A DNA stretch of 42,826 nt. Origin: Deltaproteobacteria bacterium (GTDB lineage: Bacteria > Desulfobacterota > GWC2-55-46). The stretch spans positions 1 through 42,826 of the forward strand of contig JACRCE010000094.1 of NCBI GenBank assembly GCA_016213015.1, given 5' to 3'. The notes below the pieces were generated by a model. That model had not been told where the DNA came from, did not search any database, and saw only the letters and a list, made by a program, of their open reading frames with translations. Shown here piece after piece: positions 274 through 19,861 of this stretch (position 1 is the first letter of the stretch; every line of letters starts with the position of its first letter). The position numbers and the translations under genes were made by a program.

Positions 274-1659
274 ATGAACAAGGGCAAGATACTCGTAGTG
301 GACGACGACGCCTTCTTCAGGAAGGTATTTACCGACCATCTTTCAAGCGCGGGCTACAACGTTACCGGCGTGTCAAGCGGCGCGGTTGCGCTGAATATCG
401 TCGAAAACGAGCCGGTTGACCTCGTGATAACGGACATCGTGATGCCGGAGATGAGCGGAGTAGACCTCCTGCACAAGATAAAACAGCACAACAGCCTCAT
501 TGACGTAATAGTCGTTACCGGACACGGCACCATCGAATCCGCGATAGAGACATTGAAGTCCGGCGCCTTCGACTACCTGAGAAAGCCCGTCAACGAAATA
601 GAGCTTCTCCACACGGTCGAACGCTGCATGGAGATGAAGAAGATACTCGAAGAGAATCAGGGCATGAAGCAGTCCTTGAAGCTCCATGAGGCCAGCCGCG
701 TCATCACCGCCACGCTCGACGTAATGAAACTCTACGATGCCGCCATTGACGTCTTCATGCAGTCGGTTGCCTCCGGCGCCGGGCTTGTAATCGTATACGA
801 GCCTGGGATTAAAAGATTCGACATCAAAACCATGAGACATCTGAACATAGACGCCGCCGAGACGCTTGCCGGAGCGTTTATGGCGGTGCGGGAGAAGCTC
901 GTTCGAGAAGCGGGGCATGTGAACGCCATGCCTCTGGCCGAACTTGAAGGCATAGGGTTTGAAGCGCTCGAAGGCTATTCGCACCTGCTTATAGCGCCAT
1001 TTCTAAGGACTTATGAGGCGTGCGGATTCATGGCGCTGCTTAATCGTGCCGGATGGGACGCCGGGGATATGGCAAGCGCGACTTTTATAGCCGAACACGC
1101 GGCGCAGGCGTTTGAAAACGCGCGGCACTTCTCGGACGCGAAACAGACGGCCTTCATCGACAGCCTCACCGGCCTGTATAACGCCAAGTACCTCGAGACG
1201 GCCATCGACCGCGAGGTAAAACGCGCCGACAGGCTCCTTTCCCCGCTTACCGTGCTGTTTCTCGACATAGACGACTTCAAGAACGTAAACGACTCCAACG
1301 ATCACCTTGCGGGGAGCAGGGTGCTCATAGAAGTCGGGAAACTCATACTCAAATGCGTCAGGGAGGTCGATACCGTCATACGGTACGGAGGGGACGAGTA
1401 TGTCGTGATTCTCGTAGACGCTGATTTCAACGTTGCCGAGCGCATCGCTGAAAGGATACGCTCATCCACGGAGAAACAGAGATTCCTTGAGGATGAAGGG
1501 TCCGATATAAGGCTTACCGTCTCCATAGGGCTGGCCGCCTACCCGGTGCACACAAGGGACAAGCTGGAGATTATAAAGATCGCCGACCAAGCCATGTACC
1601 GCGCCAAAAACGCGTCGAAGAACGCGGTATTCCTTGCGCCGGTGCCGCCTGCGGCATGA
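274..1659 (+). CDS. Response regulator with GAF-like domain and GGDEF diguanylate cyclase
   Basis: This 461-residue cytosolic protein probably makes the second messenger c-di-GMP from two GTP in response to phosphorylation by an unknown histidine kinase. Residues 5-118 form a receiver domain with acidic pocket DDD (10-12), phospho-acceptor Asp54 in the VITDIVMPEM stretch and the switch Lys in LRKPV. A coiled linker and a GAF-like region of about 150 residues follow. The GGDEF domain occupies the last ~165 residues with active-site RYGGDEYVVIL. A product-inhibition I-site (REVD) lies five residues before GGDEY. Tyr instead of Phe in the signature is a common active variant. The start ATG follows GAGG. 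It is monocistronic and convergent with the next gene, 10 bases between stop codons. No kinase partner is adjacent. Confidence 0.92.
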   Translation: MNKGKILVVDDDAFFRKVFTDHLSSAGYNVTGVSSGAVALNIVENEPVDLVITDIVMPEMSGVDLLHKIKQHNSLIDVIVVTGHGTIESAIETLKSGAFDYLRKPVNEIELLHTVERCMEMKKILEENQGMKQSLKLHEASRVITATLDVMKLYDAAIDVFMQSVASGAGLVIVYEPGIKRFDIKTMRHLNIDAAETLAGAFMAVREKLVREAGHVNAMPLAELEGIGFEALEGYSHLLIAPFLRTYEACGFMALLNRAGWDAGDMASATFIAEHAAQAFENARHFSDAKQTAFIDSLTGLYNAKYLETAIDREVKRADRLLSPLTVLFLDIDDFKNVNDSNDHLAGSRVLIEVGKLILKCVREVDTVIRYGGDEYVVILVDADFNVAERIAERIRSSTEKQRFLEDEGSDIRLTVSIGLAAYPVHTRDKLEIIKIADQAMYRAKNASKNAVFLAPVPPAA

Positions 1660-1669: not shown

Positions 1670-4600
1670 TCATTCAGCGGCCCGCGCCGAGACAAGCCTT
1701 TGCGATACCTTGATAAACCCGTCGTCGCCCACTGAGGCTATTACCCCTGTGTTGTACCAGCCCTCATGGAGCGCGCCGGCCGTTTTTTCAGGGTTCTTCC
1801 AGTAACCGTCCGAGACGGACGGCCCTTTTACAAGCAGAACGCCTTCCATGCCGCTTTGAAGCTCCTCGCCGCTATCCGGCGAGACGACCTTTACGGTAAT
1901 CCCCGGTATAGGGTGCCCCACCGTGCCTTCTATCCTGCCGGTTTGTCGTATACCCTTTTCTTCAACGTCAGGCACGTTAACGGACAGCACCGGGCCGATC
2001 TCGGTTGAGCCGTACCCCTCCAGAAGCGGCTTTCCGAATCTGTTCCTGAATATCCTTGCCGTTGTCTCGGCGAGTCTTTCGCCGCCGGTAACGGCGTACC
2101 TTATCGTCTGAAGCGCCTCAGGCGGCGCGTCCTTTGAAAGCGACAGATAAAATGAAGGCGTGCCGACCATCATTGCCGTTCCCGGCGCGCTTGCAAAACC
2201 GCCCATTGCCTTTACGTTCGCCTCCGAGGAACAATACCGGACGGTCAAACCGTTTATGAGCGGATACCATAGGCCGACCGTATAGCCGAAGGAATGATAA
2301 AACGGAAGCGCGGAGATAAGCGCGTCCTTGCCCTGCATGTTGAAAAGTTGCGAAAACCCTTCTATGTTGGACAGCACGTTATGATGCGTAAGCCTTACTC
2401 CGCACGGCTCGCCCTCGTGACAGCCGGTAAAGATGATTGTCGCAAGGGCAAACGGGTCGGCCTTGCCCTTGCAGTAGAGAGCGCAAATAGCCCTGTATGC
2501 AAACGCGGACGACGCAATGCGCGCTCCGAGGCGTCCAAACGCGCCGGCATCAAGCAGCATGTCTTCAATGCACACGAACCCCGGAGCGTCTTCTCGCTTT
2601 GCCTTGCCCATCCATGAGCGTGTCGTTATGATAAGGGTAATGCCGCACTGCTCCATGATAGAGGCTATGACCCGCTCGCTTGCCGACGTGCCGACGTTGA
2701 TCGGTATTTTACCCGCCATGAGGACTGCGATATTGGCTATCGCCGCATGCGCGCCCGGCTCGGCCGATATGCCGACCATGTCCTGCCCTTGAGCGCGGCG
2801 TCTTATCCGCCGCGATATTGCAAGGGACAGCGAGAGCGCCTTGCCCCACGTCACCACGACGCCCGTGTCGTCGGCCATGCAAGGCGCATTGAGGCGCGAC
2901 TTGGCGGCCTTGATGAATCTAAGATGCAGGCAGTCCTCGCCCTCCCGTCTGTACTTGACCGCTTCGCTCCCAAGTTCCATCACGGCCGTCCTTACACGCT
3001 GAATCTTTGCGCTTGAGGGAAGCGCCCTGCCGAACGACGCCGTAACGCGCCTTGGGAAGGCCGAAGGCAGCTTCCAAAAAAAACTCCCGCCCTTGAAGCT
3101 GAATATCGAACCCCACACCCTGTCGAGGTGAACCGGTATGACCGGCACGTCGAGTCCCTCGACTATCCGCTCAAGCCCCTTTTTGAAAGGCAGGAGATTG
3201 CCGGTGCGCGATATCGCGCCCTCGGCAAATACGCACACCACGTGGCCCGCCTCAAGCTCTTTTCGCGCGGCCTTGATGGACTCCAAAATATCTTTTTTAT
3301 CCCCGTCGGAGACCGGTATGGCGTGAAGATGCTTAAGCGCCCAATTAAGCGCCCTGTGCTCATAAAAATAACGGTATATCATGAAGCGGATGAAGCGGTG
3401 GACGCATGCCCCGACCAGCAGGCCGTCGATGAAGGACAGGTGGTTGCAGACCAGAAGCGCGGCCCCGCGCACGGGAACATTCTCCTTCCCGACTATGCGT
3501 ATCTTGTAGAAGGTGTGCGTGAGAAACCACAGTGAAAAACGCAACAAGAACTGTGGAAGCGCCTTTATCACGGCGATGGTGCACAGCATGGTTATTATGC
3601 CGAAGACGAAGACTATGCGGTCCGGCATTATCCCAAGCAGGTCTCTTAATGCCCAAAGCACGCCGGATGCGACGAGTATGCTCGCGGTGCCGATGAAGTT
3701 GGTCGTGGCTATGAGCCTGCCTTTTTCAGTGCCGCTGCTCCTGTGCTGCAGCATCGCGTTCATGGGCACTATGAACAGCCCGCCGAAAAAGCCGAGGAGC
3801 ACGAGGCAAACGGCCACGCGCATGTACGATCCCGAGGACAAGGCCAAAATGACGGCGACCAGCCCCATGCCTATGGAGCCGATCGGCACAAGACCCGGCT
3901 CTACCTTGTCGCCTGAGAGCCGTCCCGCGATTATGGAGCCGACGCCGATGCCGACAGCGAGGAACGTTATAAGGATGCCTATCCACGTATCGGTCAACTT
4001 CATCACTTCCTTGCCGAGGAGCAGTATATCCATCTGCAATATCGCGCCGAGAAACCAAAAGTATGTTATCGAGGCCACGGCAAGGAACAGAAAGCGGTCC
4101 TTTTTCAACGCCGCGATGCCGTGTCCTATCTCGGACCACGGATTGAGGACGAGCGGCATCGAAGCGCCGGACGCCTTGACGCGCGAGATGCCGAAGCTCA
4201 TTACGGTGCCGATGACGGCCACGACAATCATAATGCCGCCTATGATGACGAGAGAGTCCTTCCATGCCGCGAACATAAAGGTGCCCGTTGCTGTGCCGAG
4301 TATGATGGCAAGGAAGGTGCTCATCTCAAGCACGCCGTTGGCGCGGGAGAGTTCCTTCTCAGGGAGCATCTCAGGCAGTATCCCGTACTTCGCGGGGCTG
4401 AAAAACGTGGAGTGAGTGGCCATGAGAAAAAGCGTAACGAGCATGTACTCTATCCTGCCGGACAAGAGCGCGAACGCGCCGAACACGGCCGCTATTATCT
4501 CGAAGCTCTTGGTGACTATAAGAACGGATGTTTTGCTGTACCTGTCGGCAAAGTAGCCGGCATAGCCTGAAAAGAGGAAGAACGGCAGGATGAAGACCGC

Positions 4601-4768
4601 GCCCACGAGCGATACATACCCGCCGCCCGAGGAACCGGCCATGTTGACCGCGATCATGGATAAGACTATCTTGAATACGTTGTCGTTGAATGCCCCGAAG
4701 AACTGCGTCCAGAGGAAGGATTGGAAGCCTAAGGATTTGAGTATCCCTTTGTATTGACCCAGAGACAT
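1670..4768 (-). CDS. LplT-like MFS / PlsC acyltransferase / Aas-like acyl-ACP synthetase fusion, C-terminally truncated
   Basis: This 1032-residue fusion resembles the lysophospholipid-recycling proteins that join LplT (flippase) to Aas (2-acyl-GPE acyltransferase and acyl-ACP synthetase). Residues 1-~405 are a 12-helix MFS transporter. Residues ~420-610 are a PlsC acyltransferase with the HX4D motif (His443, Asp448) and FAEGAISRTG (514-523). Residues ~635-1032 are an adenylate-forming domain with the GYGSTEIGP motif at 918-926. Three things are wrong in that last domain. The phosphate-binding loop reads TGCHEGEPCG (781-790) instead of T-S-G-S-x-G-x-P-K-G, so its lysine is Cys. The TGD motif that binds ATP ribose reads TGV (1007-1009). 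The protein also stops 23 residues later, so the roughly 100-residue C-terminal subdomain with the catalytic lysine is absent. Transport and acyl transfer could still work; fatty-acid activation probably cannot. Confidence 0.88.
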   Translation of the reverse strand: MSLGQYKGILKSLGFQSFLWTQFFGAFNDNVFKIVLSMIAVNMAGSSGGGYVSLVGAVFILPFFLFSGYAGYFADRYSKTSVLIVTKSFEIIAAVFGAFALLSGRIEYMLVTLFLMATHSTFFSPAKYGILPEMLPEKELSRANGVLEMSTFLAIILGTATGTFMFAAWKDSLVIIGGIMIVVAVIGTVMSFGISRVKASGASMPLVLNPWSEIGHGIAALKKDRFLFLAVASITYFWFLGAILQMDILLLGKEVMKLTDTWIGILITFLAVGIGVGSIIAGRLSGDKVEPGLVPIGSIGMGLVAVILALSSGSYMRVAVCLVLLGFFGGLFIVPMNAMLQHRSSGTEKGRLIATTNFIGTASILVASGVLWALRDLLGIMPDRIVFVFGIITMLCTIAVIKALPQFLLRFSLWFLTHTFYKIRIVGKENVPVRGAALLVCNHLSFIDGLLVGACVHRFIRFMIYRYFYEHRALNWALKHLHAIPVSDGDKKDILESIKAARKELEAGHVVCVFAEGAISRTGNLLPFKKGLERIVEGLDVPVIPVHLDRVWGSIFSFKGGSFFWKLPSAFPRRVTASFGRALPSSAKIQRVRTAVMELGSEAVKYRREGEDCLHLRFIKAAKSRLNAPCMADDTGVVVTWGKALSLSLAISRRIRRRAQGQDMVGISAEPGAHAAIANIAVLMAGKIPINVGTSASERVIASIMEQCGITLIITTRSWMGKAKREDAPGFVCIEDMLLDAGAFGRLGARIASSAFAYRAICALYCKGKADPFALATIIFTGCHEGEPCGVRLTHHNVLSNIEGFSQLFNMQGKDALISALPFYHSFGYTVGLWYPLINGLTVRYCSSEANVKAMGGFASAPGTAMMVGTPSFYLSLSKDAPPEALQTIRYAVTGGERLAETTARIFRNRFGKPLLEGYGSTEIGPVLSVNVPDVEEKGIRQTGRIEGTVGHPIPGITVKVVSPDSGEELQSGMEGVLLVKGPSVSDGYWKNPEKTAGALHEGWYNTGVIASVGDDGFIKVSQRLVSARAAE

Positions 4769-5608: not shown

Positions 5609-5675
5609 AGGGGTCAGGTCTACTTTCTTGACATTACATAATCATGAAGATGTCAAGAAAGTAGACCTGACCCCT
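5609..5675. repeat. Perfect 26-bp inverted repeat (REP-like hairpin)
   Basis: The arm 5609-5634 (AGGGGTCAGGTCTACTTTCT followed by TGACAT) is a perfect reverse complement of 5650-5675, with a 15-base loop. It lies between the convergent SEC-C gene and htpX and could stop transcription from both sides. The GGGGTCAGGTCTAC motif resembles repeats mobilised by REP-associated tyrosine transposases (Y1_Tnp); no such transposase is in the window. Confidence 0.85.
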
Positions 5676-9303: not shown

Positions 9304-11591
9304 ATTTGTCTCCTTTCAAAGAGCCAATCCTTGAGAAGCATGACAAGCGCTGGAAGCAGTATCAACGTGAGAGCGGCCGACAGGAACATCATGCTCACTA
9401 TGAACGCGCCGACCGTGATGTACGGGGTGAGCGGCGCAAAGATCATCACTGAAAAGGCCGCGGCAAACAAGACGGCATTTCTGACGATGCCCTTGCCCGG
9501 TCTCGATGCCGTCCATAGGAGCGCATCCTTGACGCCGGTATCCGGGTCTCCCTCGGAGAGCCTCTGCCTGAACCTGCCGATGAAGTGGATGGAAAAGTCC
9601 ACGGCCATGCCGAGTGACAGACAGCTCAAAACCGATATGGGCATGTCGAAGTCCTTGCCCGCAAAGCCGACCACGCCGTAGATGACGAGCACCGTCAAAA
9701 GGAGCGGGGCATACGCCACAAGCGCCCACTTAAAGGAACGGAAGGCAACGGCAAGTATAGCAAAGACCGCGACAAGGGCTATGACAAAGCCCTTCAACAT
9801 GTCCATAAGCACCTCGTCGTTCCAGACAAGGTTGAAGTACGCGGACCCGGCTGGTTTAAGGGTGATCCTGCCGGGGTTGGCCTTTTGATATGCCTCGACA
9901 ACCGTGATGATCTCGCGCATGGCCGATGCGTCCCACGTCTTGAGTTGCACCGTGATATTCGCCCTCTTGAAATCGTAGTCTATCACGGAGTCCATGTCCG
10001 ATGGCCTTGCGGACATGCCAAACAGAAACAGATACTGGCCGATAATCTCCTTGGAGTCCGGCACAACGTCGTAAGCCGGGTTGTCGTCATGGAGCACGAC
10101 GTTTATCCTCCTTACGTAGTCGACTACGGAGCTCGTCTTGCCTACTATGGGCAGCGCCTCAAGCTGTCTTTGCAGTCCATCGACGTAGCGCATGGCCTCC
10201 GGCGTTTTCATGTACTCGGCGTCTTGAGCCGCAGCAACGACGTAGCCGACGGACGTGCCGCCGAGCTTGGAGTTCATCACCGCGTCGGCGACGCGGATAT
10301 CGCTGGCCTTCTTGAACCACTCGACCATGTTGTTGTTGACGTTGAGGCGCGATACGCCTATGGCTGAAAGGACGATCAACGCGCCGCCAATTGCGGCAAT
10401 CGTTCGCGGCCGCCTCGCCCCTATGGCGCACATTGACCTTAAAAACCCGGAGGCGCCCGGCTCATGAGCAAAGCGCGCCTTGTCGTCTTTCATAAGCATG
10501 AGGATCGCCGGAATGACGCTGAAGCTTAAAAGTCTCAAGACAACCGTGCCAAAGGCTATCATCGCGCCGAAGACCCGCACCGGTATTATGGACATGAACA
10601 ACAGCACCGCAAAACCGACCGCGGTTGCAAGCGCGGTATAGCGCACCGGGGCGCTCACCGCGTGCATGGTCTCGATTATGGCGGTTCTTTTATCCTTGCT
10701 TTCGCGGAGCCTGAAGCGGAACTCGTTGAATATGTGGATGCTGTCCGTCGCTATGGCCATGAGAAAGACCGGGGCCATAGAACTCATTATGTGCACCGGA
10801 TACCCGAGCCCGATAAAAAGCCCCATGCTCCATAAGATGCTCACCATGGCCACGGCCATCATGCCCACGGCAAGGGACATGCTCCTGAACATGACGAGTA
10901 TGGCGCCGAACATTATGGCCCCGGCGATCGGCGCGAACTTGCCCATGAGAGTGAACATCTCGGCCCCGAAGGTGTCCCGCGCAACAGGGTCTCCGGCGAC
11001 GTAGTATCTCTCAGCGCCTTTTTCCCTGCCTGTAATCTCCCTTATCTCGTCGGCTATCTCTTTGGCGTTTGCGCCTTTTTCAAGGGGTATGTAGATGGCC
11101 GTGGCCTTCCCATCCCTTGATATGAGCCGCTCAAGAAAGAGCGGGTTGGCTTGAACGGCTTTTCTGAGAGAGGCTGCCCCGGCCTCGGTCTCCGGCGCCG
11201 TTTGCATGAGCGGGGCAACCTTCAAGGTTCCGGCCTCGGCTGAGACGTTCGTTATTGTCGTGAATCCGGTAACGTCCCTTGAGGCAACGCCCTTGAGCGC
11301 GGATACGGCGCTGGTTATGCGCTCGATGCGTTGGAGCGTTGCCGCGTTGAACACGCCCGCGTCGTTGACGACCCCTACCACGAGCATGTCCTCGTACAGG
11401 CCGAAGGCCTTTTCCACCTCGGCGTTAAGGACGCGCACAGGAGACTCCGGCGGGAGCATGTTCTTAGGATTGGTGTCAAACCGTATCCCGGCAAACCGCG
11501 TGCCAAACCCGATGGTAACGAGTAAGACGATCGCAAGAACGAGCCAAGGGCGATTAACGGAAAATTCGACGAGTGAGAAGCGATGTAACAT
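9300..11591 (-). CDS. MMPL/HpnN-type RND transporter
   Basis: This 763-residue inner-membrane exporter is driven by the proton gradient. It has the duplicated RND layout: one N-terminal helix (about 13-30), a periplasmic loop, five to six helices with an SSD-like segment (FLMAIATDSIHIFNEFRFRL), then a second loop and helix set with AVDFSIHFIGRFRQRL. The D-S-I-H motifs mark the MMPL/hopanoid-transporter branch rather than AcrB-type drug pumps, which are about 1000 residues. Likely cargo is a lipid or other hydrophobic envelope compound. It lies 14 bases downstream of the methyltransferase and overlaps the LolA-like gene. Confidence 0.92.
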   Translation of the reverse strand: MLHRFSLVEFSVNRPWLVLAIVLLVTIGFGTRFAGIRFDTNPKNMLPPESPVRVLNAEVEKAFGLYEDMLVVGVVNDAGVFNAATLQRIERITSAVSALKGVASRDVTGFTTITNVSAEAGTLKVAPLMQTAPETEAGAASLRKAVQANPLFLERLISRDGKATAIYIPLEKGANAKEIADEIREITGREKGAERYYVAGDPVARDTFGAEMFTLMGKFAPIAGAIMFGAILVMFRSMSLAVGMMAVAMVSILWSMGLFIGLGYPVHIMSSMAPVFLMAIATDSIHIFNEFRFRLRESKDKRTAIIETMHAVSAPVRYTALATAVGFAVLLFMSIIPVRVFGAMIAFGTVVLRLLSFSVIPAILMLMKDDKARFAHEPGASGFLRSMCAIGARRPRTIAAIGGALIVLSAIGVSRLNVNNNMVEWFKKASDIRVADAVMNSKLGGTSVGYVVAAAQDAEYMKTPEAMRYVDGLQRQLEALPIVGKTSSVVDYVRRINVVLHDDNPAYDVVPDSKEIIGQYLFLFGMSARPSDMDSVIDYDFKRANITVQLKTWDASAMREIITVVEAYQKANPGRITLKPAGSAYFNLVWNDEVLMDMLKGFVIALVAVFAILAVAFRSFKWALVAYAPLLLTVLVIYGVVGFAGKDFDMPISVLSCLSLGMAVDFSIHFIGRFRQRLSEGDPDTGVKDALLWTASRPGKGIVRNAVLFAAAFSVMIFAPLTPYITVGAFIVSMMFLSAALTLILLPALVMLLKDWLFERRQI

Positions 11592-11605
11592 GAAACCTCC
11601 GAATG

Positions 11606-12319
11606 TTATGTCTTTACGCCGGTTGCTGCGGAAAACGCCCCAAGGCGAGGGAACATGGCTGTGCCGATTCTTTCGGTCAGCGGCGCGGTCTTGAGATATA
11701 GAGCGCTGTTTATCGGCAGGAAGTAAAGGCAGGTCTTTACCTCCACGTCCTCGAATCCGGCGGCAAGGAACGAACCCTTCAACTCCGGCGGAGAGGTAAA
11801 CTCCGCCTGCGAATAGACGGTATCCTTAAATAAGCCTTTGAGCCTTCTCAGGAAGGCCCACGGAGACCATGAGTTAAGCGTCCCGACGACGAGCCTGTGG
11901 CCCGGCTTCAATACCCGGCGCATCTCCTTGAGCGCAATCGGACTTTCTGTCGCGTTGACGAAACACAGGACGCCTATCGAAATCACAAGATCAAACTCAT
12001 TGTCCCTGAAGGGCAGTCTTTGTGCCGACGCCTCTACAAACTCCACGTTGACGTGCTGCGCCGTTGCCTTTGAGGCCGCAAGGCCGAGCATCTCAGAGGA
12101 CGAATCAATTGCAGTAACGCTAAAACCCTTTTGGGCAAGCGCCAGCGCGTATATGCCCGTTCCGCACCCCGCGTCAAGCGCCCTTTGCCCTTGCCTCAAC
12201 CCCAAGGCCGCAAACGAAAAAACAAGCTCCCGTTCCCTTTCGTGCGCCGTCTTGCCGAGCATGGTTTCGTACCATGCGTCGTATCTTTGCGCGTCCCATT
12301 GTTTCATGGCTCTGTGCAA
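11606..12319 (-). CDS. Class I SAM-dependent methyltransferase
   Basis: This 237-residue Rossmann-fold methyltransferase (Methyltransf_11 type) has SAM motif I LDAGCGTGIYALALA (about 54-68), followed by the acidic residue in ITAIDSSSEML and the LVISIGVLCF strand. The substrate is unknown. A strong GGAGG lies 8 bases before a TTG at 12319, favouring TTG over the in-frame ATG at 12307. It heads a probable operon with the RND exporter, LolA-like protein and outer-membrane barrel, so it may modify the exported lipid or small molecule. The leader RNA could fold so as to hide the ribosome site (see 12328-12395). Confidence 0.87.
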   Translation of the reverse strand: MHRAMKQWDAQRYDAWYETMLGKTAHERERELVFSFAALGLRQGQRALDAGCGTGIYALALAQKGFSVTAIDSSSEMLGLAASKATAQHVNVEFVEASAQRLPFRDNEFDLVISIGVLCFVNATESPIALKEMRRVLKPGHRLVVGTLNSWSPWAFLRRLKGLFKDTVYSQAEFTSPPELKGSFLAAGFEDVEVKTCLYFLPINSALYLKTAPLTERIGTAMFPRLGAFSAATGVKT

Positions 12320-12327
12320 GGCTAACC

Positions 12328-12395
12328 CCTCCCGCTTCCCATTGCATTGTGCTTCGCACGCAATGGGAGCCCTGCCCTTTGAAAAAAAGGGGAGG
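12328..12395 (-). promoter_or_regulatory. Possible folded leader of the methyltransferase gene
   Basis: A hairpin with CCCATTGC/GCAATGGG arms (12338-12345, 12360-12367) and an inner GTGC/GCAC stem lies directly before the start. Outside it, GGGAGG (the ribosome site, 12333-12328 on the minus strand) can pair with an upstream CCTCCC (12395-12390). The fold could hide the ribosome site. Only sequence complementarity supports this. Confidence 0.3.
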
Positions 12396-12440
12396 AGAAA
12401 AGAAATTGTCCATTACAGCCATGCCCCACGGTCTTGTCTT

Positions 12441-12465
12441 TCACGGTCACGGCCACGGTTCACGG
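12441..12465. repeat. Short CACGG-type dispersed repeat
   Basis: TCACGGTCACGG and CACGGTTCACGG units occur here in tandem, next to the 3' end of the sulfide:quinone oxidoreductase gene. Near-identical units are found at 29062-29086 and 30139-30168. Confidence 0.6.
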
Positions 12466-12474
12466 CCTTATGCC

Positions 12475-13731
12475 CTATTCGATCTTCTTTATCTTCAACG
12501 CGCCAAGTATCATCTTTTCGTAGAACGGCTCCACGTTGCCGCGCTTCATCTTCCTTATGTAGTACTTCTCGAATACGATCTTGGCAAGCCTGACCCATGC
12601 GCCTTTTTTTGCCCATGTAAGGTTCCTTGGCGGGATCTGGGGCTTGGCTGCAAAGGCCACGCCCGTGTCCCCGAGGTCCGCGAGACATACGGCGTTGAGC
12701 GTCGGGGTCGCGCTTGGCTTGAGTCCGTTTATCTCATCTTTTATGTTGCGAACCGTTGCCGCGACCATTGACTCTATCATATAGCCGGTCTTGGGCACGC
12801 CGACCGGCACTGGCGTCGGCTCAACCGGCGGTATGGCCACGCATACGCCCACGGCGTAGACGTTCGGGTATTTTTTCGACCTTTGATGTTCGTCAACCAA
12901 AACAAAGCCCCGTGGATTGACGAGTCCGGGCACGGACGCGACCGCGTCAACGCCCTTGAAGGCCGGGATTATCATCGAATACTTGAACGGCATCTCTTCT
13001 TCCCCTGCCTCGTTCGTATGCACGATCATCTTCCCGCGCTCGACGCGCCGTATAGTCGCGCTTGTGCGCCAGCTTATGTGCCTCTGGCGCAGTTCGTGCT
13101 CCATGAGCGCCTTTGAATCGCCTATGCCGGCAAGCCCCATGTGCCCTATGTACGGCTCGTTCGTAACGAAGGTGATGGGGCATTTTTTCCTAAGTCTTCT
13201 TTTTCTGAGGTCAACGTCAAGGATACAGGCGAACTCATACGCGGGGCCTAAGCACGACGCCCCCTGAGCCGCGCCGATGATCACCGGACCAGGGTCTTTA
13301 CAAAACTCCTCGTACCTTGCATACGCGGCCTCGGCGTGCTCAACCGTGCAGATGGATGCCGTGTGGCCGTCAGGCCCAAGCCCGGGAACCTCGTCAAAGC
13401 TGAGCTTTGGCCCGGTCGCAATGACGAGATAGTCGTAAGTCAGCGCCTCGCCGCTGCCCGTTGTGACGGTATTCTTTTCCGCGTCAATCGCGGAAGCGCC
13501 GGTCGAAAAGAACCGCGCGCCCTTTTTCTCAAGGCGCTCTCTCAGTGAAAAGCTCGTTTCGCTTCTCTTCCTCCACCCGATCGCCACCCACGGATTGGAC
13601 GGCACGAAGTGAAACTCCGGCGCGAGCGATACCACGGTTATTTCGTGCGCCTTGCCGATCTCTCTTAAGAGTTCGTATGCCGCGCTCAACCCTCCGGTCG
13701 ACGCGCCGATTATGATTATCCTCGCCATCAA
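12475..13731 (-). CDS. sqr: Sulfide:quinone oxidoreductase family flavoprotein
   Basis: This 418-residue FAD protein most likely oxidises sulfide to sulfane sulfur or polysulfide and passes electrons to membrane quinone. The N-terminal dinucleotide fold reads RIIIIGASTGGLSAAYEL (4-21). A second FAD segment is YLVIATGPKL (101-110). Three cysteines, Cys128, Cys160 and Cys349, fall close to the three redox cysteines of characterised SQR (128, 160 and 356 in the Acidithiobacillus enzyme), which separates it from NADH dehydrogenase-2. The basic, aromatic C-terminal segment (about 373-400) is typical of monotopic membrane attachment. It lies 39 bases downstream of an ArsR-family gene on the same strand, suggesting sulfide-responsive control. 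Confidence 0.88.
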   Translation of the reverse strand: MMARIIIIGASTGGLSAAYELLREIGKAHEITVVSLAPEFHFVPSNPWVAIGWRKRSETSFSLRERLEKKGARFFSTGASAIDAEKNTVTTGSGEALTYDYLVIATGPKLSFDEVPGLGPDGHTASICTVEHAEAAYARYEEFCKDPGPVIIGAAQGASCLGPAYEFACILDVDLRKRRLRKKCPITFVTNEPYIGHMGLAGIGDSKALMEHELRQRHISWRTSATIRRVERGKMIVHTNEAGEEEMPFKYSMIIPAFKGVDAVASVPGLVNPRGFVLVDEHQRSKKYPNVYAVGVCVAIPPVEPTPVPVGVPKTGYMIESMVAATVRNIKDEINGLKPSATPTLNAVCLADLGDTGVAFAAKPQIPPRNLTWAKKGAWVRLAKIVFEKYYIRKMKRGNVEPFYEKMILGALKIKKIE

Positions 13732-13744
13732 ACCCCCCTCTTAT

Positions 13745-13762
13745 CCCCCCTTGTCAGGGGGG
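13745..13762 (-). terminator. GC hairpin between arsR-type gene and sqr
   Basis: Six C and six G residues flank TTGTCA, forming a perfect 6-bp GC stem in the gap between the two genes. There is no T-run after it in the minus direction, so it may attenuate or stabilise the transcript rather than fully terminate. Confidence 0.35.
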
Positions 13763-13770
13763 AAGTCCCA

Positions 13771-14106
13771 TTACTTCTTGCCGCGCCCTTTCATCTCCTT
13801 GGCCGTCCGGCCTTTGTCTTCAAATTGCTCCATGAGCACGGACTTCATCATGGCGCAAGCCTCGGTTATCCTCGGGCTGCTGATGCGATAGTAGACCTTA
13901 ACCCCGTCCCTCCGGGCAATGACTATGCCCCTTGCGCGGAGCACGGCAAGGTGCTGGGATAGGTTGGCCTTCGCTATGCCGAGTTTTTTCGCAAGCGCTC
14001 CGGCGGAAAGCTCATCCCCCCTGAGGCAAGCGATTATCTCAAGCCTCTTGGGGTTGGCCAGCGTCTTGCAAATCTCGGCCTGAAGCTCAAAGACGCTCTG
14101 TTTCAT
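13771..14106 (-). CDS. ArsR-family winged-helix repressor
   Basis: This 111-residue dimeric repressor has the ArsR core: LANPKRLEIIACL (residues 16-28), recognition helix region AKANLSQHLAVLRARGIV (46-63) and the beta wing RRDGVKVYYRI (65-75). Classical metal-site ELCVCDL is absent. Cys13, Cys27 and Cys84 remain, which would suit a thiol or persulfide sensor of the SqrR/BigR kind, although the spacing is not an exact match by eye. It is the first gene before sqr. A perfect palindrome overlaps its promoter, indicating autoregulation. No ribosome site precedes the ATG, and the promoter placement suggests a leaderless transcript. Confidence 0.9.
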   Translation of the reverse strand: MKQSVFELQAEICKTLANPKRLEIIACLRGDELSAGALAKKLGIAKANLSQHLAVLRARGIVIARRDGVKVYYRISSPRITEACAMMKSVLMEQFEDKGRTAKEMKGRGKK

Positions 14107-14111
14107 AGTTG

Positions 14112-14141
14112 CATTGTTGCTAAACTTTGCAACAATGTCAA
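14112..14141 (-). promoter_or_regulatory. Promoter and palindromic operator of the arsR-type/sqr operon
   Basis: On the minus strand TTGACA (14141-14136) precedes AACAAT (14118-14113) by 17 bases. The arms CATTGTTGC (14112-14120) and GCAACAATG (14129-14137) are perfect inverted repeats separated by 8 bases and cover the spacer and -10. A bound repressor would block RNA polymerase. The predicted transcription start falls on or next to the ATG at 14106. Confidence 0.7.
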
Positions 14142-14168
14142 CAAAAAAATAGGCGCGTCTTGTGCCCG

Positions 14169-15011
14169 TTAAACGGCGCGGCGGCGCGGAGCAAGTTGCC
14201 GCCTAACGAGCCTTTCGAGCGTTTGAACGTCCGGTTTGAACTCCGGTTTCGGCGGGACGCGGTGCGCTGCAAGCGGAAGAAGCGCATGAAAAGGGGTGGC
14301 TGCCAGCTTCAGGTTATATGCCTCGACCATCAGGCTCTCCAGATTCACGGCGTCAAGCGCGTTGTAGGCAAGCAGCGTATCCAGCGCCTTGTGATTTCCG
14401 TTTCTCTCATAGTCATGCCACAGGAGCACGGCGGTGTACCCGTCCGCGCCGCTCAACTCTCCCCTGTCCAGCCCCATCCGTCTTTCGCAACCCTTGAGTC
14501 CGCCCTTGAACCCGAGGCTTCCGAGGACGAACCGCAGGTCTATATGGGCATGGGGCAGTCGGATGCCGAGGCTTCGCCGGATAAACGGCACGTCAAAGCA
14601 TCTTCCGTTATAAGTAACGATGACCTTGAACCGATCGATATCGCTTTTGAATTCGTCGAGATTCCTGCCGCGCACGTAGGCCCGCGCCGTTTTACCGTCA
14701 TAAAGGGATATGGCCGTTATATAACCGTAAGGAGGAGCAAGCCCGTTCGTCTCTATGTCAAGGTACGCGGTCTGACCGCGAAACTCGGAAAACAGCCTCC
14801 ATGACTCGCCTGCGGGCAGGGACGCCGCGAAATAGTCCGGGTCTCCGGCTGAAAGCCGATCAATCGCCTCGAGGACGCCGTTCAACAACCCGCGCTCCAA
14901 CCTTTCAACCCGGCAGAGCGCGGATTGCCATGACGATATGCCGCCGGCCCAAAGAGAGCGCTCGATCTTCAGCCCGATACCGTGTATGTGGCAAAATGTA
15001 TGCGTAAGCAT
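14169..15011 (-). CDS. RNase H-like exonuclease domain protein (YprB type)
   Basis: This 280-residue protein has a DEDD-type 3'-5' exonuclease fold. AYLDIETNGL gives the first Asp-Glu pair. VTYNGRCFDVPFI provides the second Asp in an N-G-x-x-F-D-x-P context. The C-terminal LLAYNALDAVNLESL provides the last Asp. This order matches the YprB-like ribonuclease H-like superfamily. Target nucleic acid is unknown. The frame stays open to 15197, but the ATG at 15011 has TGAGG 9 bases upstream, and the longer version would run across the divergent promoter at 15146-15173. It lies 62 bases upstream of the arsR-type gene on the same strand, but that gene has its own promoter. Confidence 0.82.
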   Translation of the reverse strand: MLTHTFCHIHGIGLKIERSLWAGGISSWQSALCRVERLERGLLNGVLEAIDRLSAGDPDYFAASLPAGESWRLFSEFRGQTAYLDIETNGLAPPYGYITAISLYDGKTARAYVRGRNLDEFKSDIDRFKVIVTYNGRCFDVPFIRRSLGIRLPHAHIDLRFVLGSLGFKGGLKGCERRMGLDRGELSGADGYTAVLLWHDYERNGNHKALDTLLAYNALDAVNLESLMVEAYNLKLAATPFHALLPLAAHRVPPKPEFKPDVQTLERLVRRQLAPRRRAV

Positions 15012-15145
15012 AAGAAGTAACCTCAAGGGTGTATGTGCGCCATAGTAGCATGTCTGCGTCGAAAAACATACTCCAAAACTGCCTAAAACACCGCGACCAT
15101 CGCAACATGACGATTTTTCAGCTTTTTTTATGAAGGCTGTCGCAC

Positions 15146-15173
15146 TTGACAGAGGCGCATTACAGGCTATACT
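15146..15173 (+). promoter_or_regulatory. Sigma-70-like promoter of the DUF948-ytxH operon
   Basis: A perfect TTGACA (15146-15151), a 16-base spacer and TATACT (15168-15173) lie 17 bases before the ATG at 15191, with AGGAGGG in between. Confidence 0.65.
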
Positions 15174-15190
15174 CAAGTCAGGAGGGTCCA

Positions 15191-15580
15191 ATGACAATCA
15201 CCATGAGCATATATGAGCTTTCCATGCTGCTTATCGCCATTGGATTCATAGTGATTATCATTGTCTTGATACCAACGGTACTACAGGCAAAAAAAACTTT
15301 GAAGTCGGTTGAGGAGTTGTCCGTCGAAAGCAGAAAAGCAATGGAGCGCTTGAACGTCATCCTCGAAAAAGCAGGTGCAAATACGGCCGACGTGGAGGAG
15401 TTGGTCAAGAGGTTCAAGGACGTTGCGCTTGGCTTCATGGGGCTTGCGGAGATGGTTTTGGAGCATGTAAGAAGCCCGATATTGACCATATTAAGCCTGA
15501 TACTCGGCGCTGAATTCGGTTTGAAGCGTTTATTCGGAAACAAAGACAAAACTGGGGGTGAGGGTCATGACAAACAATAA
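15191..15580 (+). CDS. DUF948 family membrane-anchored protein
   Basis: This 129-residue protein has one N-terminal membrane helix (about 6-30, LLIAIGFIVIIIVLIPTVL) followed by a helical, probably coiled-coil segment (KTLKSVEELSVESRKAMERL) and a weakly hydrophobic C-terminal helix. This is the usual DUF948 layout; the family has no established biochemical role but commonly sits next to YtxH proteins in Gram-positives and deep Gram-negatives, as here. The start at 15191 is set by AGGAGGG seven bases upstream. The last 14 bases overlap the start of the YtxH gene, so the two are translationally coupled. Confidence 0.82.
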   Translation: MTITMSIYELSMLLIAIGFIVIIIVLIPTVLQAKKTLKSVEELSVESRKAMERLNVILEKAGANTADVEELVKRFKDVALGFMGLAEMVLEHVRSPILTILSLILGAEFGLKRLFGNKDKTGGEGHDKQ

Positions 15581-15872
15581 AGGCAACGTACTTCTCGCTT
15601 TTCTGGCAGGCGGCGTAGTAGGGGCCGGGATCGCCCTTCTGTATGCGCCCGCGTCAGGCGCAGATACGCGAAAGAGGATAAAAGAGGGCGCAGACGGAGC
15701 TAAGGACTGGGCAAAGGAGAGGCTTGACGCGGTGTCCGGCGGCCTCGAAGAGCGTACCGGCATGGTTAAACAGATGATAGGGAACAAGACGGAAGACCTC
15801 AAGGCCGCCTATACGGCGGGCAAGGAGGCTTTTTACAAGGGCAGGGAGCGGCTTGAGAAGGAGTCGTCCTAA
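15567..15872 (+). CDS. YtxH domain protein
   Basis: This is a 101-residue small membrane-associated protein. An N-terminal glycine-rich helix (LLAFLAGGVVGAGIALLYAPASG) is followed by the family's charged amphipathic helix with KRIKEGADGAKDWAKE. YtxH proteins are linked to general stress responses in Bacillus; no activity is known. The ATG at 15567 is preceded by GTGAGGG and overlaps the DUF948 gene. A terminator follows at 15892, so DUF948-ytxH is probably a two-gene unit. Confidence 0.85.
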   Translation: MTNNKGNVLLAFLAGGVVGAGIALLYAPASGADTRKRIKEGADGAKDWAKERLDAVSGGLEERTGMVKQMIGNKTEDLKAAYTAGKEAFYKGRERLEKESS

Positions 15873-15891
15873 CGGCCGGTAAACCCTTGCG

Positions 15892-15920
15892 CGGCGCTCA
15901 AAGGCGCCGTTTCTTTTTTC
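15892..15920 (+). terminator. Rho-independent terminator after the ytxH-type gene
   Basis: CGGCGC (15892-15897) and GCGCCG (15904-15909) form a perfect stem with loop TCAAAG, followed by TTTCTTTTTT. It separates DUF948-ytxH from the fructose-bisphosphatase-like gene, which starts 23 bases later. Confidence 0.75.
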
Positions 15921-15942
15921 GGTACGGCTGAAAGGGGCGATA

Positions 15943-17040
15943 ATGGCGGGAAAAAACAAACTCTGCCTCAGCGTCATAACCGCCGATGTCGGGGGCTTCA
16001 TAGGCAACGTCAGTTCTCACCCTGAAGTTCTCGACACGGCAAAGGAGACGCTTGATACGGCGAAAGGAAAGGCCGGGCTCCGCGACTTTCACGTGCTCCG
16101 TTGCGGGGACGACCTTGCCCTTGTGATAACGCACGAGGCCGGGTGCGAGAGCCGTGCATTGCATGAGATTGCATGGAAGACCTTTATATCATGCAGGGAC
16201 GTGGCAATCGGCTTGAAGCTCTACGGCACCGGGCACGGACTTTCAAAGGATGGCTTTACAGGCACTTTATTGGGCATGGGCCCAGGCGTAGCCGAGATGG
16301 AGTTTGTTGAACGGGAGAGCGAATCCATAGTCATCTTTCTCATCAACAAAGCGGCAACCGGGCCGTTCAACCTGCCGTTTTACAAGATTTTCGCGGACCC
16401 GTTCAACACCGCCGGGCTTATACTCGACAAGGAGATGTCGGACGGCTTTTCCTTCAGGATACGCGACTTAGAGAGCGGCAAGGAGATAAGGCTGTCGGCG
16501 CCGGGCAAACTCCATGAAATACTTGCCCTTGCCGGGTCAGGGGCAAGGTACGTCATAACCGGCGTTGCGAAGAACTCGAACGGAGAGAATGCCGCATCGG
16601 TCTCGGCTCAGAAGATTGCCACTGGGGGAGGCGAGGCCAGCCATTCCGAGCCAACGGCGATAGTGAGATGTCAGGCCGGTTTCCCGACCGTCGGCGAGGT
16701 CATGGAGGCATTCGCCTTTCCGCATCTGGTAAGCGGGTGGTTGAGGGGCGCTCATAACGGCCCGCTCCTTCCTGTGCCGTTTTATGAGGCCAACCCGACG
16801 AGGTTCGACGGCCCGCCGAGGATCATAAGCGCCGGGTTTCAGATTGCGGACGGCAGGCTTTTGGGGCCGCACGACATGTTCGACGATCCGAGCTTTGACG
16901 AAACGAGACGGCTTTCAAACCAGATAACCGAATATATACGCAGGCACGGCCCGTTCGAGCCTCACAGACTGCCGGAAGACGCTCTGACAACGAGCAATCT
17001 TCCAGCGACGATTGAGGCCCTAAAGAATCAGTTCCAATAG
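15943..17040 (+). CDS. FBP aldolase/phosphatase (class V FBPase) homologue lacking catalytic residues
   Basis: The 365-residue protein matches the bifunctional fructose-1,6-bisphosphate aldolase/phosphatase of Archaea and deep-branching Bacteria along its whole length: N-terminal SVITADVGGFIG, the GDDLALVITH strand, ADPFNTAGLILD, AFAFPHLVSGWLRG, RFDGPPR and RRHGPFEPHRLP. Compared from memory with the Sulfolobus/Thermoproteus enzymes, most active-site residues are replaced. Schiff-base Lys232 is His234, Tyr229 is Glu231, metal ligands His18, Gln95, Asp132 and Asp233/234 are Asn22, His98, Asn135 and Ser235/Glu236, and the C-terminal Tyr is Thr350. Asp15 and Asp56/57 remain. It is therefore unlikely to be a normal gluconeogenic enzyme; a binding or regulatory role is possible. 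No strong ribosome site precedes the ATG beyond AAGGGG. Confidence 0.88.
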   Translation: MAGKNKLCLSVITADVGGFIGNVSSHPEVLDTAKETLDTAKGKAGLRDFHVLRCGDDLALVITHEAGCESRALHEIAWKTFISCRDVAIGLKLYGTGHGLSKDGFTGTLLGMGPGVAEMEFVERESESIVIFLINKAATGPFNLPFYKIFADPFNTAGLILDKEMSDGFSFRIRDLESGKEIRLSAPGKLHEILALAGSGARYVITGVAKNSNGENAASVSAQKIATGGGEASHSEPTAIVRCQAGFPTVGEVMEAFAFPHLVSGWLRGAHNGPLLPVPFYEANPTRFDGPPRIISAGFQIADGRLLGPHDMFDDPSFDETRRLSNQITEYIRRHGPFEPHRLPEDALTTSNLPATIEALKNQFQ

Positions 17041-17057
17041 GATTGGGGGTGAGCGTC

Positions 17058-17582
17058 ATGAAAGGCATGCATCTGGGCACGAAGAAAGCCATTGACACCG
17101 AGGTTGATCCTTACATGTCGGATGTAAAGCCGGGCGAGGCCGCGGCATGTATAAAATGCGGGGCTATATATCACAAGAAAAGATGGACTATGCCCGAGGA
17201 CGCGCCTCAAGCGGTGCTGGCCAAGGTAAGCGCAAGCGTTACCTGTCCGGGGTGTATTAAGGTGCGCGACAAGTTCGCCGAGGGGTTCGTTACCATACAA
17301 GGGAGCTTTCTCAAGGCGCATAAGGATGAGATAATAAGGCTCCTCAGGAACAAGGAAGCGATCTCCAGACATACAAACCCGCTTGAGAGGATCATAGAGA
17401 TAAAAAGAAGCGGCGCGGGAGTAGAGGTAACTACCACGACGGAAAAGCTGGCGCAGAGGCTTGGGGCCATGCTCCATAAGACCTTTGCGGGCGAATGCGT
17501 CTACAAATGGAGCGACGACGTTAAACTCGCCCGCGTGGTATGGACGCGGCAGGAGGCGGCCTCCGCAAAAAGGGCAAGATAG
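17058..17582 (+). CDS. BCAM0308/NMD3-like zinc-ribbon protein
   Basis: This is a 174-residue soluble protein with two CxxC pairs: CIKCGAIYHKKRW near residue 31 and CPGC about 40 residues later, forming a zinc ribbon. The second half has alternating charged strands (RIIEIKRSGAGVEVTTTTEKLAQRL) ending in KWSDDVKLARVVWTR, a layout like NMD3-type or BCAM0308 proteins. No function is established. The ATG at 17058 sits after GGGGGTGA; an in-frame TTG at 17043 is less likely. It starts 17 bases after the fructose-bisphosphatase-like stop and ends 10 bases before amrS, so the three are probably one transcript. Confidence 0.75.
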   Translation: MKGMHLGTKKAIDTEVDPYMSDVKPGEAAACIKCGAIYHKKRWTMPEDAPQAVLAKVSASVTCPGCIKVRDKFAEGFVTIQGSFLKAHKDEIIRLLRNKEAISRHTNPLERIIEIKRSGAGVEVTTTTEKLAQRLGAMLHKTFAGECVYKWSDDVKLARVVWTRQEAASAKRAR

Positions 17583-17592
17583 AGACTCAACC

Positions 17593-18648
17593 ATGATGGA
17601 GGCAAGACTCTACGAAAAAACCGACAAGCACGCCGTGCTCTGCCGGTTGTGCGCGCACGGATGCCGAATAGCCGTGGGCAGGCGCGGCATCTGCGGCGTG
17701 CGAGAGAACAGAGACGGTACGCTGTACACGCTCGTGTACGGCAAGCTCATCGCCGAGCACGTAGACCCTGTTGAAAAAAAACCGATGTTTCACTTTCAGC
17801 CCGGTACGCGCTCATACTCCATAGCAACCGTTGGCTGCAACTTCAGGTGCGCCAACTGCCAGAACGCCGAAATATCCCAAGCGCCCAAGGACATCCCCTC
17901 GATGCTTGTCCCCGAAGGCTTCAATCGTGGAGAGACATTCGAGGGCAAGCTCGGCAGCGACGCGACCCCTTACGAGGCGGCGCACGAGGCCGCGGAAACG
18001 GGCTGCTCCAGCATTGCATACACCTACACGGAACCCACCATATTCTTCGAGTTCGCGCAGGATACGGCGCGGGTCGCAAAGAGCCTTGGCCTCAAAAACA
18101 TATTCGTTACGAACGGCTACATGACGAGGCAGTGCCTTGACGAGATGAAGGGCCTTCTGGACGGCGCGAACGTGGACTTGAAGTCCGCCTCGGATGATTT
18201 TTACAAGAAGGTCTGCGGCGCAACCCTTGCCCCGGTGCGTGAATCCATCGAATACATGCGCGCCCTTGGCGTGTGGGTCGAGATAACCACGCTCATCATC
18301 CCGACGCTCAACGACTCGGAGGAGGAACTTAAAGAGACCGCCCGATGGATAGCCTCGGTTGATAACGCTATCCCTTGGCACGTAAGCGCATTCCATCCCG
18401 CCTACAAACTCATGGACTTGCCACCGACGAGCGAGTCAACCGTAATCCGCGCAAGGGAGATAGGGCTTACAGCGGGGCTTAAATACGTCTATACCGGCAA
18501 TATCCAGGCCGGCGACGGCGAGAACACATACTGTCCGGCCTGCAAGACGCGCCTGATAACAAGACGCGGTTTTATCGTAACGTCGAATCTTGTGGATGAC
18601 GGCAAGTGTCCGCAGTGCAAGGCAACGATAGAGGGGGTTGATCTGTAG
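17593..18648 (+). CDS. amrS: AmmeMemoRadiSam system radical SAM enzyme
   Basis: This 351-residue radical SAM enzyme has the Fe-S motif C-x3-C-x2-C in VGCNFRCANCQN. Two further cysteine clusters frame it: CRLCAHGCRIAVGRRGICGVREN at the N-terminus, and CPACKTRLITRRGF with CPQCKATI at the C-terminus. This is the AmrS (PflA-like) family that co-occurs genome-wide with AMMECR1 and MEMO proteins; the substrate is unknown. Neither partner is in this window. The ATG at 17593 (a second ATG follows directly) gives the family start MMEARLYEKT; the longer open frame overlaps the zinc-ribbon gene and is not used. Confidence 0.92.
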   Translation: MMEARLYEKTDKHAVLCRLCAHGCRIAVGRRGICGVRENRDGTLYTLVYGKLIAEHVDPVEKKPMFHFQPGTRSYSIATVGCNFRCANCQNAEISQAPKDIPSMLVPEGFNRGETFEGKLGSDATPYEAAHEAAETGCSSIAYTYTEPTIFFEFAQDTARVAKSLGLKNIFVTNGYMTRQCLDEMKGLLDGANVDLKSASDDFYKKVCGATLAPVRESIEYMRALGVWVEITTLIIPTLNDSEEELKETARWIASVDNAIPWHVSAFHPAYKLMDLPPTSESTVIRAREIGLTAGLKYVYTGNIQAGDGENTYCPACKTRLITRRGFIVTSNLVDDGKCPQCKATIEGVDL

Positions 18649-18746
18649 GGGGCGGGAACCCCATGAAAGCCGTGATGCGTGAAAGCGTATTTCCAAAGAG
18701 ATTGCCTGCCGCCTGTGTGGCTGACAAAACTTGGCTACGTGACTTA

Positions 18747-19115
18747 TTAGACGAAGTACTTCGCGGTGAAAACAAGGACTACATTGATGATGGCAAGCAG
18801 CAAGGGCAGAGCAATTGCTATATGACGACCTAAAATTCCGAAAAGTGGAGGTCTGAGCCTTGTTGGCATTATATCCGCAATAGCTATAGAGCAGGCGTCA
18901 AGGTACTGGGAATCACGTCGTATGAGAAGGCTGACGATGACGAGAAGCCCATATCCTAATAGAAGTATAGCTGCGCCGAGAGCAGGATGTCCATCTCCAC
19001 AGACTTTGTACCACCCAGTCAAAGTACCAGCCTCAATAAACGCGGTAGTCTGCATTCGGCTCCACATAAGTTTGTTCTGCTCAGTCCAATAGCTCACAAG
19101 GTCATCTGGGTTCAT
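18747..19115 (-). CDS. Small two-helix membrane protein of unknown function
   Basis: This protein of about 122 residues has two strong membrane helices: one in ALGAAILLLGYGLLVIVSLL and one in HIAIALPLLLAIINVVLVFT. Its soluble start, with YWTEQNKLMWSRMQTTAFIEAG, resembles small uncharacterised membrane proteins found next to mobile or accessory genes. The frame opens at 19190, but GGAG lies just before the tandem ATGs at 19118/19115 and the first 24 residues look unrelated, so the shorter start is chosen. Base composition is visibly more AT-rich than the flanking genes, which suggests acquisition. Confidence 0.6.
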   Translation of the reverse strand: MNPDDLVSYWTEQNKLMWSRMQTTAFIEAGTLTGWYKVCGDGHPALGAAILLLGYGLLVIVSLLIRRDSQYLDACSIAIADIMPTRLRPPLFGILGRHIAIALPLLLAIINVVLVFTAKYFV

Positions 19116-19247
19116 CATTACTCCGTGCGGGTTCAAGCTTGCAACCTGAATGAACTCTTTTGATTCGTAATTAAAAATAAACGATTGCACCTGTCAACTA
19201 TTTTTCTGTGCCGGCAGGATTTTGCCTGCCGCATGCGAGGCAAAAAT

Positions 19248-19506
19248 TTACGGATTCCTTAACGCCTCATCATGGTTTCCTATAACTCGAAGGGTTATCG
19301 CATCATTATGGATGGTGAAGGTGAATCGGTATTGATAATCCACCCGCGCTTCCCATATATTTTTTTGTCCGCCTATCTTTTTGGTATGCAATGACGGATG
19401 GAAGAGTTCGGTGAATAAGAGCAACGGCCTTTTTTATCTTTGTCTTGATATGGTCGGGAAGTTTCAGAAATGCTTTGTCAAAGGTTTTTGTCCGGCAGAC
19501 TTTCAC
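19248..19506 (-). pseudogene. Frameshifted RelE/ParE-type toxin
   Basis: Starting at the GTG at 19506 the frame encodes KVCRTKTFDKAFLKLPDHIK, a RelE-like N-terminus, through KKAVAL. After about position 19418 the family sequence continues in another frame (FHPSLHTKKIGGQKNIWEAR, then YQYRFTFTIHNDAITLRVIG) to a TAA at 19248. Joining the two gives a full-length toxin of about 85 residues; the continuous frame instead ends at 19306 with unrelated residues. The shift is equivalent to one extra base (or two missing) near GCTCTTATTC. It is preceded by its antitoxin with 25 bases between. Sequencing error is possible. Confidence 0.75.
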
Positions 19507-19531
19507 TTAACGCGCCTTCGCTTACCCTTGT

Positions 19532-19789: not shown

Positions 19790-19861
19790 ACTATAATAAC
19801 CTCCGGCAAGGGTTTCTTCAGCTTATAACGCGCCTATCATAAAAAGCAAGCGGGTTTACAT

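Follow-up and report, generated by a model that had tools for sequence, protein, structure and literature searches.

The locus analysed here raises the question of why a gene for a fused lysophospholipid transporter, acyltransferase and acyl-ACP synthetase (LplT-PlsC-Aas) should carry a synthetase domain whose active site looks broken. A first-pass annotation of the DNA had described three independent defects in this last domain, namely an altered phosphate loop, a change of TGD to TGV and an early end that removes the C-terminal subdomain, and had offered two explanations: relaxed selection on adenylation, with transport and acyl transfer kept, or a new non-adenylating role. We analysed the gene within the window, meaning the whole stretch of 42,826 nucleotides, which is one entire contig (JACRCE010000094.1 of assembly GCA_016213015.1, Deltaproteobacteria bacterium) from a genome of 2.27 Mb that is 98.7% complete, and compared it with related genomes.

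Layout of the fusion gene

The features of the gene and its immediate neighbor are as follows.

274..1659, plus strand: response regulator-GGDEF gene, convergent with the fusion gene and 10 bp from its stop codon
1670..4768, minus strand: LplT-PlsC-Aas fusion gene, C-terminally truncated, 1032 aa; PRK08633 (acyl-[ACP]--phospholipid O-acyltransferase family)
3668..4708, minus strand: MFS (LplT-like lysophospholipid transporter) domain, residues 21-367; Pfam MFS_1, 3.3e-24; NDN motif at residues 28-30
3128..3505, minus strand: PlsC acyltransferase domain, residues 422-547; Pfam PF01553, 5.3e-25; HX4D (NHLSFID), EGAISRTG and VIPVHL motifs
1799..2908, minus strand: AMP-binding (ANL) N-terminal subdomain, residues 621-990; Pfam PF00501, 1.3e-54, 186 bits; catalytically degenerate, yet conserved
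2399..2428, minus strand: broken phosphate loop TGCHEGEPCG, residues 781-790; mostly TSGSTGxPKG in the intact family
2285..2314, minus strand: A4 segment SALPFYHSFG; His retained in the window's protein and replaced by Tyr in its three truncated relatives
2000..2020, minus strand: A5 segment EGYGSTE; 1 of 24 cells changed over the four truncated genomes (one Tyr to Trp), which speaks against a pocket that has eroded completely
1742..1750, minus strand: TGV in place of TGD, residues 1007-1009, ribose-binding Asp gone; TGV in three of four truncated rows, TGD in all 26 rows that keep the C-terminus
1673..1726, minus strand: hinge followed by a short tail of novel sequence, DDGFIKVSQRLVSARAAE; beyond this the protein lacks the C-terminal subdomain, with its A8 Lys and catalytic Lys

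The protein matched the NCBIfam model PRK08633 with 1013.1 bits, below the full-length family cut-off of 1221, over profile positions 5-1041 of 1147; positions 1042-1147 are missing, and translation stops 11 residues past GFIKV. The broken loop, the TGV and the missing subdomain thus all lie where the first-pass annotation had placed them. The synthetase domain as a whole had been assigned to 1670-2700, and this range is too short, since the Pfam match begins at residue 621 (window 2908), upstream of 2700. The same annotation had read the transporter and acyltransferase parts as intact, and their motifs are kept. All four truncated proteins described below have NDN in the MFS part and, in the PlsC part, HX4D and EG[AS]I[ST]RTG, which mark a PlsC-type acyltransferase. 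The LplT model PRK11195 has a cut-off of 297 bits, and the MFS domain scored 162 against it; a shortfall of this kind may be expected when the homologue is fused.

The rest of the window holds several features of its own. An inverted repeat lies directly after a SEC-C gene at 5616-5668; its 19-base arm occurs in 7 copies on six contigs of the genome (0 for a reversed-sequence control), and the repeat looks like a dispersed hairpin element. By reading only, two adjoining ORFs of 497 and 492 aa at 21502-24688 (minus strand) resemble B12-binding/radical-SAM proteins, and an ORF run at 35229-41934 (plus strand), which ends close to the contig end, resembles genes for a group 4 (Hyf/Hyc-like) hydrogenase, or for a complex related to it, in its membrane and large subunits. 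A tRNA gene at 32180-32252 (plus strand) was the sole Rfam match at the gathering threshold in the window.

The truncation is shared by four genomes

The fusion protein was found in 28 of the 30 genomes of the family, the window's own included (E 1e-60). Twenty-one of these holders encode the full-length protein with its C-terminal domain, three are cut at contig ends with the C-terminus kept, and four end at the hinge: the window's genome (G000, genus g1), G003 (g4), and G010 and G018 (both g11). Three other genomes, from two further genera, therefore have the same hinge truncation and a broken phosphate loop. In a sample of 395 genomes from the phylum, 20 matched an intact query at 1e-150; among those 20 the window's genome alone ended at the hinge, which is query residue 1026, the rest extended to 1071-1130, and the three truncated sisters were absent among the matches listed.

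A tree of the MFS-PlsC part (residues 1-600) was built from 26 rows, comprising 21 intact family proteins, the outgroup G053 and the four truncated proteins. The latter were split off by a single branch with support of 100/99, found in 100% of 200 bootstrap trees. The same four grouped when the AMP-binding part was analysed alone (99/97) and in an RpoB tree of 22 genomes, a gene that lies on another contig (99/95). The simplest reading of these trees is that one vertically inherited event lies behind the truncation. With only four genomes and one event, co-occurrences of the truncation with other traits carry no statistical weight.

The draft assembly consists of 117 contigs, of which the window is one, and we considered an assembly or frameshift error, or a recent pseudogene confined to this genome, as an explanation. 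We regard it as extremely improbable. The first-pass annotation had allowed for a frameshift near 1700 followed by a continuing C-terminal domain, and this fails because four separately assembled genomes, in three genera, share the truncation. The stop codon occupies 1670-1672 and is followed by only 10 bp before the convergent response regulator-GGDEF gene, so a continuing C-terminal domain cannot hide there. A tblastn search with four intact C-termini against the 1.5 kb downstream gave a best E value of 1.6 in the window's genome, and no C-terminal remnant was detected downstream of any of the four truncated genes (best match E 0.19). A convergent neighbor with a like C-terminal end adjoins six of eight other orthologues inspected (L003, L004, L010, L013, L014 and L020), two of which are truncated; the neighbor of L016 looked different, and the flank of L019 was too short to judge. 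The four truncated rows contained no internal stop codons. A frameshift concealing the C-terminus was thus ruled out by the 10-bp gap, the lack of a downstream remnant and the identical end in the sister genomes. Gene fission with the C-terminal subdomain encoded elsewhere was likewise rejected, as each of the four genomes has a single PF13193 match, in an Acs-like gene.

Catalytic residues are lost in all four truncated proteins

Active acyl-ACP synthetases of the ANL superfamily (Aas/AasS) have a phosphate loop of the form [ST]SG[ST]xGxPKG. The loop of the window's protein departs from it not only at the lysine named by the first-pass annotation but also at SGS, which is replaced as well, and the loops of the three sisters (TGAADGEPRG, TRAQTGPPLG and TGVETGL-KG) are broken too. 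The defects cannot be counted as three independent ones, as had been proposed: the truncation and the broken loop are common to the four-genome clade, and the change of TGD to TGV is found in three of the four, with TGD retained in G003.

In the account of Vibrio harveyi AasS given in PMC11271967, ribose is bound by D411 and R426 and the acyl carbonyl is held by H226; K432 touches the adenylate analogue, and the C-terminal domain contributes K522. The single mutants D411A, R426A and K432A are each reported there to be inactive, both in vitro and in vivo. We assigned the equivalents of D411, R426 and K432 by spacing and on the ground that AasS is homologous to an intact orthologue (that of G009, which matches AasS over residues 769-1124). 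All 26 rows whose C-terminus is intact carry an Asp/Arg/Lys triad at +0/+15/+21 from the TGD Asp. The triad is broken in each of the four truncated rows, which read V/R/A (window), V/G/G, D/K/E and V/S/K, the Lys of the last sitting in an unrelated tail. Counted over the aligned rows, this split between intact and truncated proteins is well beyond chance. The C-terminal Lys (GKx[DE]) was found in 25 of 25 other orthologue rows and is missing from the four truncated ones; the C-terminal subdomain with its catalytic Lys is not encoded in the window's gene, and elsewhere in the genome it was found only in Acs. Three rows cut at contig ends (L028, L029 and L030) were excluded from the trees and invariant-column counts and included for the C-terminal Lys and the triad, a more distant row from another family (L031) entered the triad count only, and the Acs-like and FlxY-like rows (L032 and L034) were aligned and excluded from all counts. 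As judged from these residues, adenylation has almost certainly been lost in the truncated clade while the motifs for transport and acyl transfer have been kept.

The remnant domain remains under constraint

The remnant AMP-binding part, of about 425 residues, has kept its length, 421-428 residues in the truncated proteins versus 422-431 in the intact ones. Of the columns invariant in 22 intact rows, all four truncated proteins keep 164 of 188 in the MFS-PlsC part and 50 of 85 in the AMP-binding part. As a control, we scored an intact clade of four rows against columns invariant in 15 other intact rows; it keeps 86 of 96 AMP-binding columns versus 54 of 96 for the truncated four, and 189 of 195 MFS-PlsC columns versus 169 of 195. 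Since retention is lower than in the control clade, constraint on the remnant is clearly weaker than on an active domain, yet the remnant is far from free.

We calculated dN/dS (Nei-Gojobori) for the AMP-binding part and obtained 0.24-0.35 over four truncated pairs and 0.09-0.23 over eight intact pairs; the ratios are rough, since several of the pairs approach saturation at synonymous sites. Within genus g11, the pair of truncated genes gave 0.28 for the AMP-binding part and 0.20 for the MFS-PlsC part. Neutral simulation of the coding stretch to 0.5 substitutions per site introduced a stop into every one of 1000 copies. Neither these values nor the open reading frames resemble those of a pseudogene. 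The ratio of AMP-binding to MFS-PlsC distances was 2.27-2.75 in the truncated proteins versus a median of 1.60 in the intact ones (5-95% range 1.24-2.10). Two members of the truncated clade have long RpoB branches, so part of the speed is genome-wide.

Losses were not significantly concentrated in the phosphate loop and A4, where 7 of 11 invariant columns had changed versus 28 of 74 elsewhere (p = 0.19). The case for a dead synthetase depends on the identity of the lost residues and not on their enrichment. Residues fixed specifically in the truncated clade numbered one in the AMP-binding domain, four in the MFS domain and one in the PlsC domain.

These data bear directly on the two explanations of the first-pass annotation. 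Its relaxed selection, taken simply, is too weak an account: evolution of the domain is faster than that of its intact counterparts, yet it stays under purifying selection at full length. The combination of purifying selection and unchanged length favors the second explanation, a non-adenylating role.

We also predicted the structure of residues 600-1032 with AlphaFold2, from 27 aligned rows of which one was a close relative and the rest distant ANL proteins. The model had a mean pLDDT of 79.8 and a pTM of 0.86. A Foldseek search of the PDB with this model matched MatB (malonyl-CoA synthetase; E 1.1e-30, TM 0.76), and fold matches among the 50 listed comprised MatB, 4-coumarate-CoA ligase (4CL), VinN and NRPS adenylation cores, with TM of 0.71-0.80 by query length. 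The remnant is thus predicted to fold as an ANL N-terminal subdomain, a prediction that says nothing of its stability in the cell.

Other ligases and lipid genes

A search of each truncated genome with PF00501 returned three matches: the fusion itself, an Acs-like gene and a 430-446-aa PaaK/FlxY-like gene. The search for a stand-alone acyl-ACP synthetase, proposed as a check by the first-pass annotation, thus yielded these last two and no FadD-type ligase; a FadD-like ligase (about 450-580 aa), held by most relatives, was detected by PF00501 in none of the four. At least four of the other 26 family genomes (G004, G020, G022 and G024) likewise had nothing beyond the fusion and, in three of them, Acs. 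No free AMP-binding_C domain (PF13193) was found in any of the four truncated genomes, where the sole match lay in the Acs-like gene. Lnt, which releases lyso-PE, scored above cut-off in 29 of 30 genomes, including all four truncated ones, and PlsX was present in all four, which fits a role of acyl-ACP as acyl currency.

The PaaK-type ligase has a strong homologue (E < 1e-160) in the four truncated genomes alone of the 30, the next best match being 1.3e-19; its nearest NCBIfam model is FlxY, at 450 bits, under the cut-off of 520. In the window's genome this ligase lies in a cluster (G000:C76, about 10000-24000; L096) with ketoacyl synthases, B12-binding radical SAM proteins and a methyltransferase by Pfam, and all four genomes of the clade hold the cluster (look-alike ORFs L097, L098 and L099). 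We considered the ligase as an acquired replacement for the synthetase and set this aside, as the cluster looks like a flexirubin/aryl-polyene-type pathway and not one of lipid recycling, which does not prove the ligase irrelevant. Given the shared single origin of the four genomes, its co-occurrence with the truncation cannot be weighed.

A probable conserved pseudo-synthetase and the alternatives

At the level of the sequences, the truncated proteins have lost catalytic residues and a whole subdomain, with a single vertical origin; the remnant is under purifying selection, and the PlsC and LplT motifs are conserved without a substitute FadD-type ligase. Loss of adenylation in the clade is strongly supported by the same comparisons, and we infer that no adenylation takes place in vivo. 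We lean towards the reading that the fusion is a flippase-acyltransferase with a conserved pseudo-acyl-ACP-synthetase, which uses de novo acyl-ACP and in which the dead domain serves as a scaffold or an acyl-ACP dock. A lysophospholipid, such as lyso-PE from Lnt, would be flipped to the inner leaflet by the MFS domain and then re-acylated by the PlsC domain fused to it. The third domain of the intact ancestor would have converted free fatty acid and ATP to acyl-ACP. One ancestral event would have removed the C-terminal subdomain in the truncated clade; the phosphate loop and the ribose and acyl contacts would then have eroded, presumably in that order, ending fatty acid activation. The truncated fusion most likely takes acyl-ACP from fatty acid synthesis, and the dead N-terminal subdomain may have been kept as a folded scaffold, most plausibly docking ACP or acyl-ACP beside the PlsC active site. 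E. coli Aas, as described in PMC13170283, binds ACP at a site of high affinity, joins free fatty acid to the carrier and transfers the acyl group to the lysolipid; de novo acyl-ACP is reported to serve it in vitro, less well, and as the poorer donor for this enzyme it counts against our reading. Carrier proteins contact the C-terminal subdomain of ANL enzymes too, and with that subdomain gone ACP docking may be weakened.

Since no new conserved patch was found, a remnant that is purely structural, binding no ligand and needed only for the folding or stability of the PlsC domain or of the whole membrane protein, comes close as a rival; we hold it to be possible, if on balance unlikely. It would account for the full domain length and the many glycine and aromatic core columns kept while catalytic contacts were lost, for the predicted intact fold and for the single clade-specific fixed residue in the domain, which gives no sign of a new binding site. 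It sits less well with the retained A5 pocket motif, and in E. coli LplT is reported to contact only the transferase domain of Aas, which still binds LplT on its own (PMC11416262), so that the synthetase domain appears unnecessary for that contact. All four proteins retain the A5 YGxTE motif almost entirely, and one retains TGD, so some nucleotide binding may survive. More doubtful is a variant in which the dead domain, with fold and A5 pocket kept but catalysis lost, is a regulatory sensor of acyl-ACP, free fatty acid or nucleotide that gates the fused flippase-acyltransferase; were it true, lysolipid repair would follow the supply of newly made acyl chains.

The same A5 conservation, broken by one conservative change, could be taken with the TGD of G003 and the A4 His of the window as signs of residual or split adenylation, in which the degenerate N-terminal subdomain would still produce or use acyl-AMP, either unaided or together with a C-terminal subdomain in trans. 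We find this improbable, because the phosphate loop and the hinge/A8 triad are each broken in four of four proteins, single substitutions at the equivalent AasS positions are reported to suffice for inactivity (PMC11271967), and no free AMP-binding_C domain is available in any of the genomes. Ongoing decay, with the domain on its way out and no selection for it, we rate no higher. The raised distance ratio and the poor column retention relative to the control clade are what decay would produce, but the dN/dS values, the absence of stop-free copies in the neutral simulation and the unchanged domain length across four lineages in three genera speak against it.

The preferred reading, a pseudo-synthetase kept within a working flippase-acyltransferase, can be set beside known systems. 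The truncated fusion is orthologous to the fused LplT-Aas proteins of PRK08633, with the same MFS-PlsC-AMP-binding order and 53-60% identity to full-length intact members, and differs from them in its broken synthetase active site; fused LplT-Aas proteins are described as uncharacterized in PMC11416262. Its ANL domain is homologous to that of V. harveyi AasS (PDB 8HSY series), but the D411/R426/K432 equivalents, assigned by spacing, are broken as a set in the four truncated proteins and the C-terminal subdomain is missing. It also resembles cases of domain atrophy and ANL pseudoenzymes, in which a partial domain is described as functional after losing part of its fold. The PF00501 domain of phenylacetate-CoA ligase is one such case (PMC4432964), described there as a ligase minus N-terminal elements; the window's fusion, unlike that ligase as so described, has lost the catalytic subdomain and active-site residues, and has done so inside a membrane fusion protein. 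Our search of open-licence literature, judged by titles and the openings of abstracts, found no degenerate synthetase in an LplT-Aas fusion and nothing on LplT together with a pseudoenzyme.

A natural synthetase that is dead but retained would separate two jobs that the domain may have, synthesis of acyl-ACP and its presentation to the acyltransferase, and the truncated fusion could allow presentation to be tested alone. If our reading is true, automatic annotation mislabels this gene as a synthetase in the truncated clade, and lysophospholipid repair can run in this small group of uncultured bacteria without re-activating free fatty acids.
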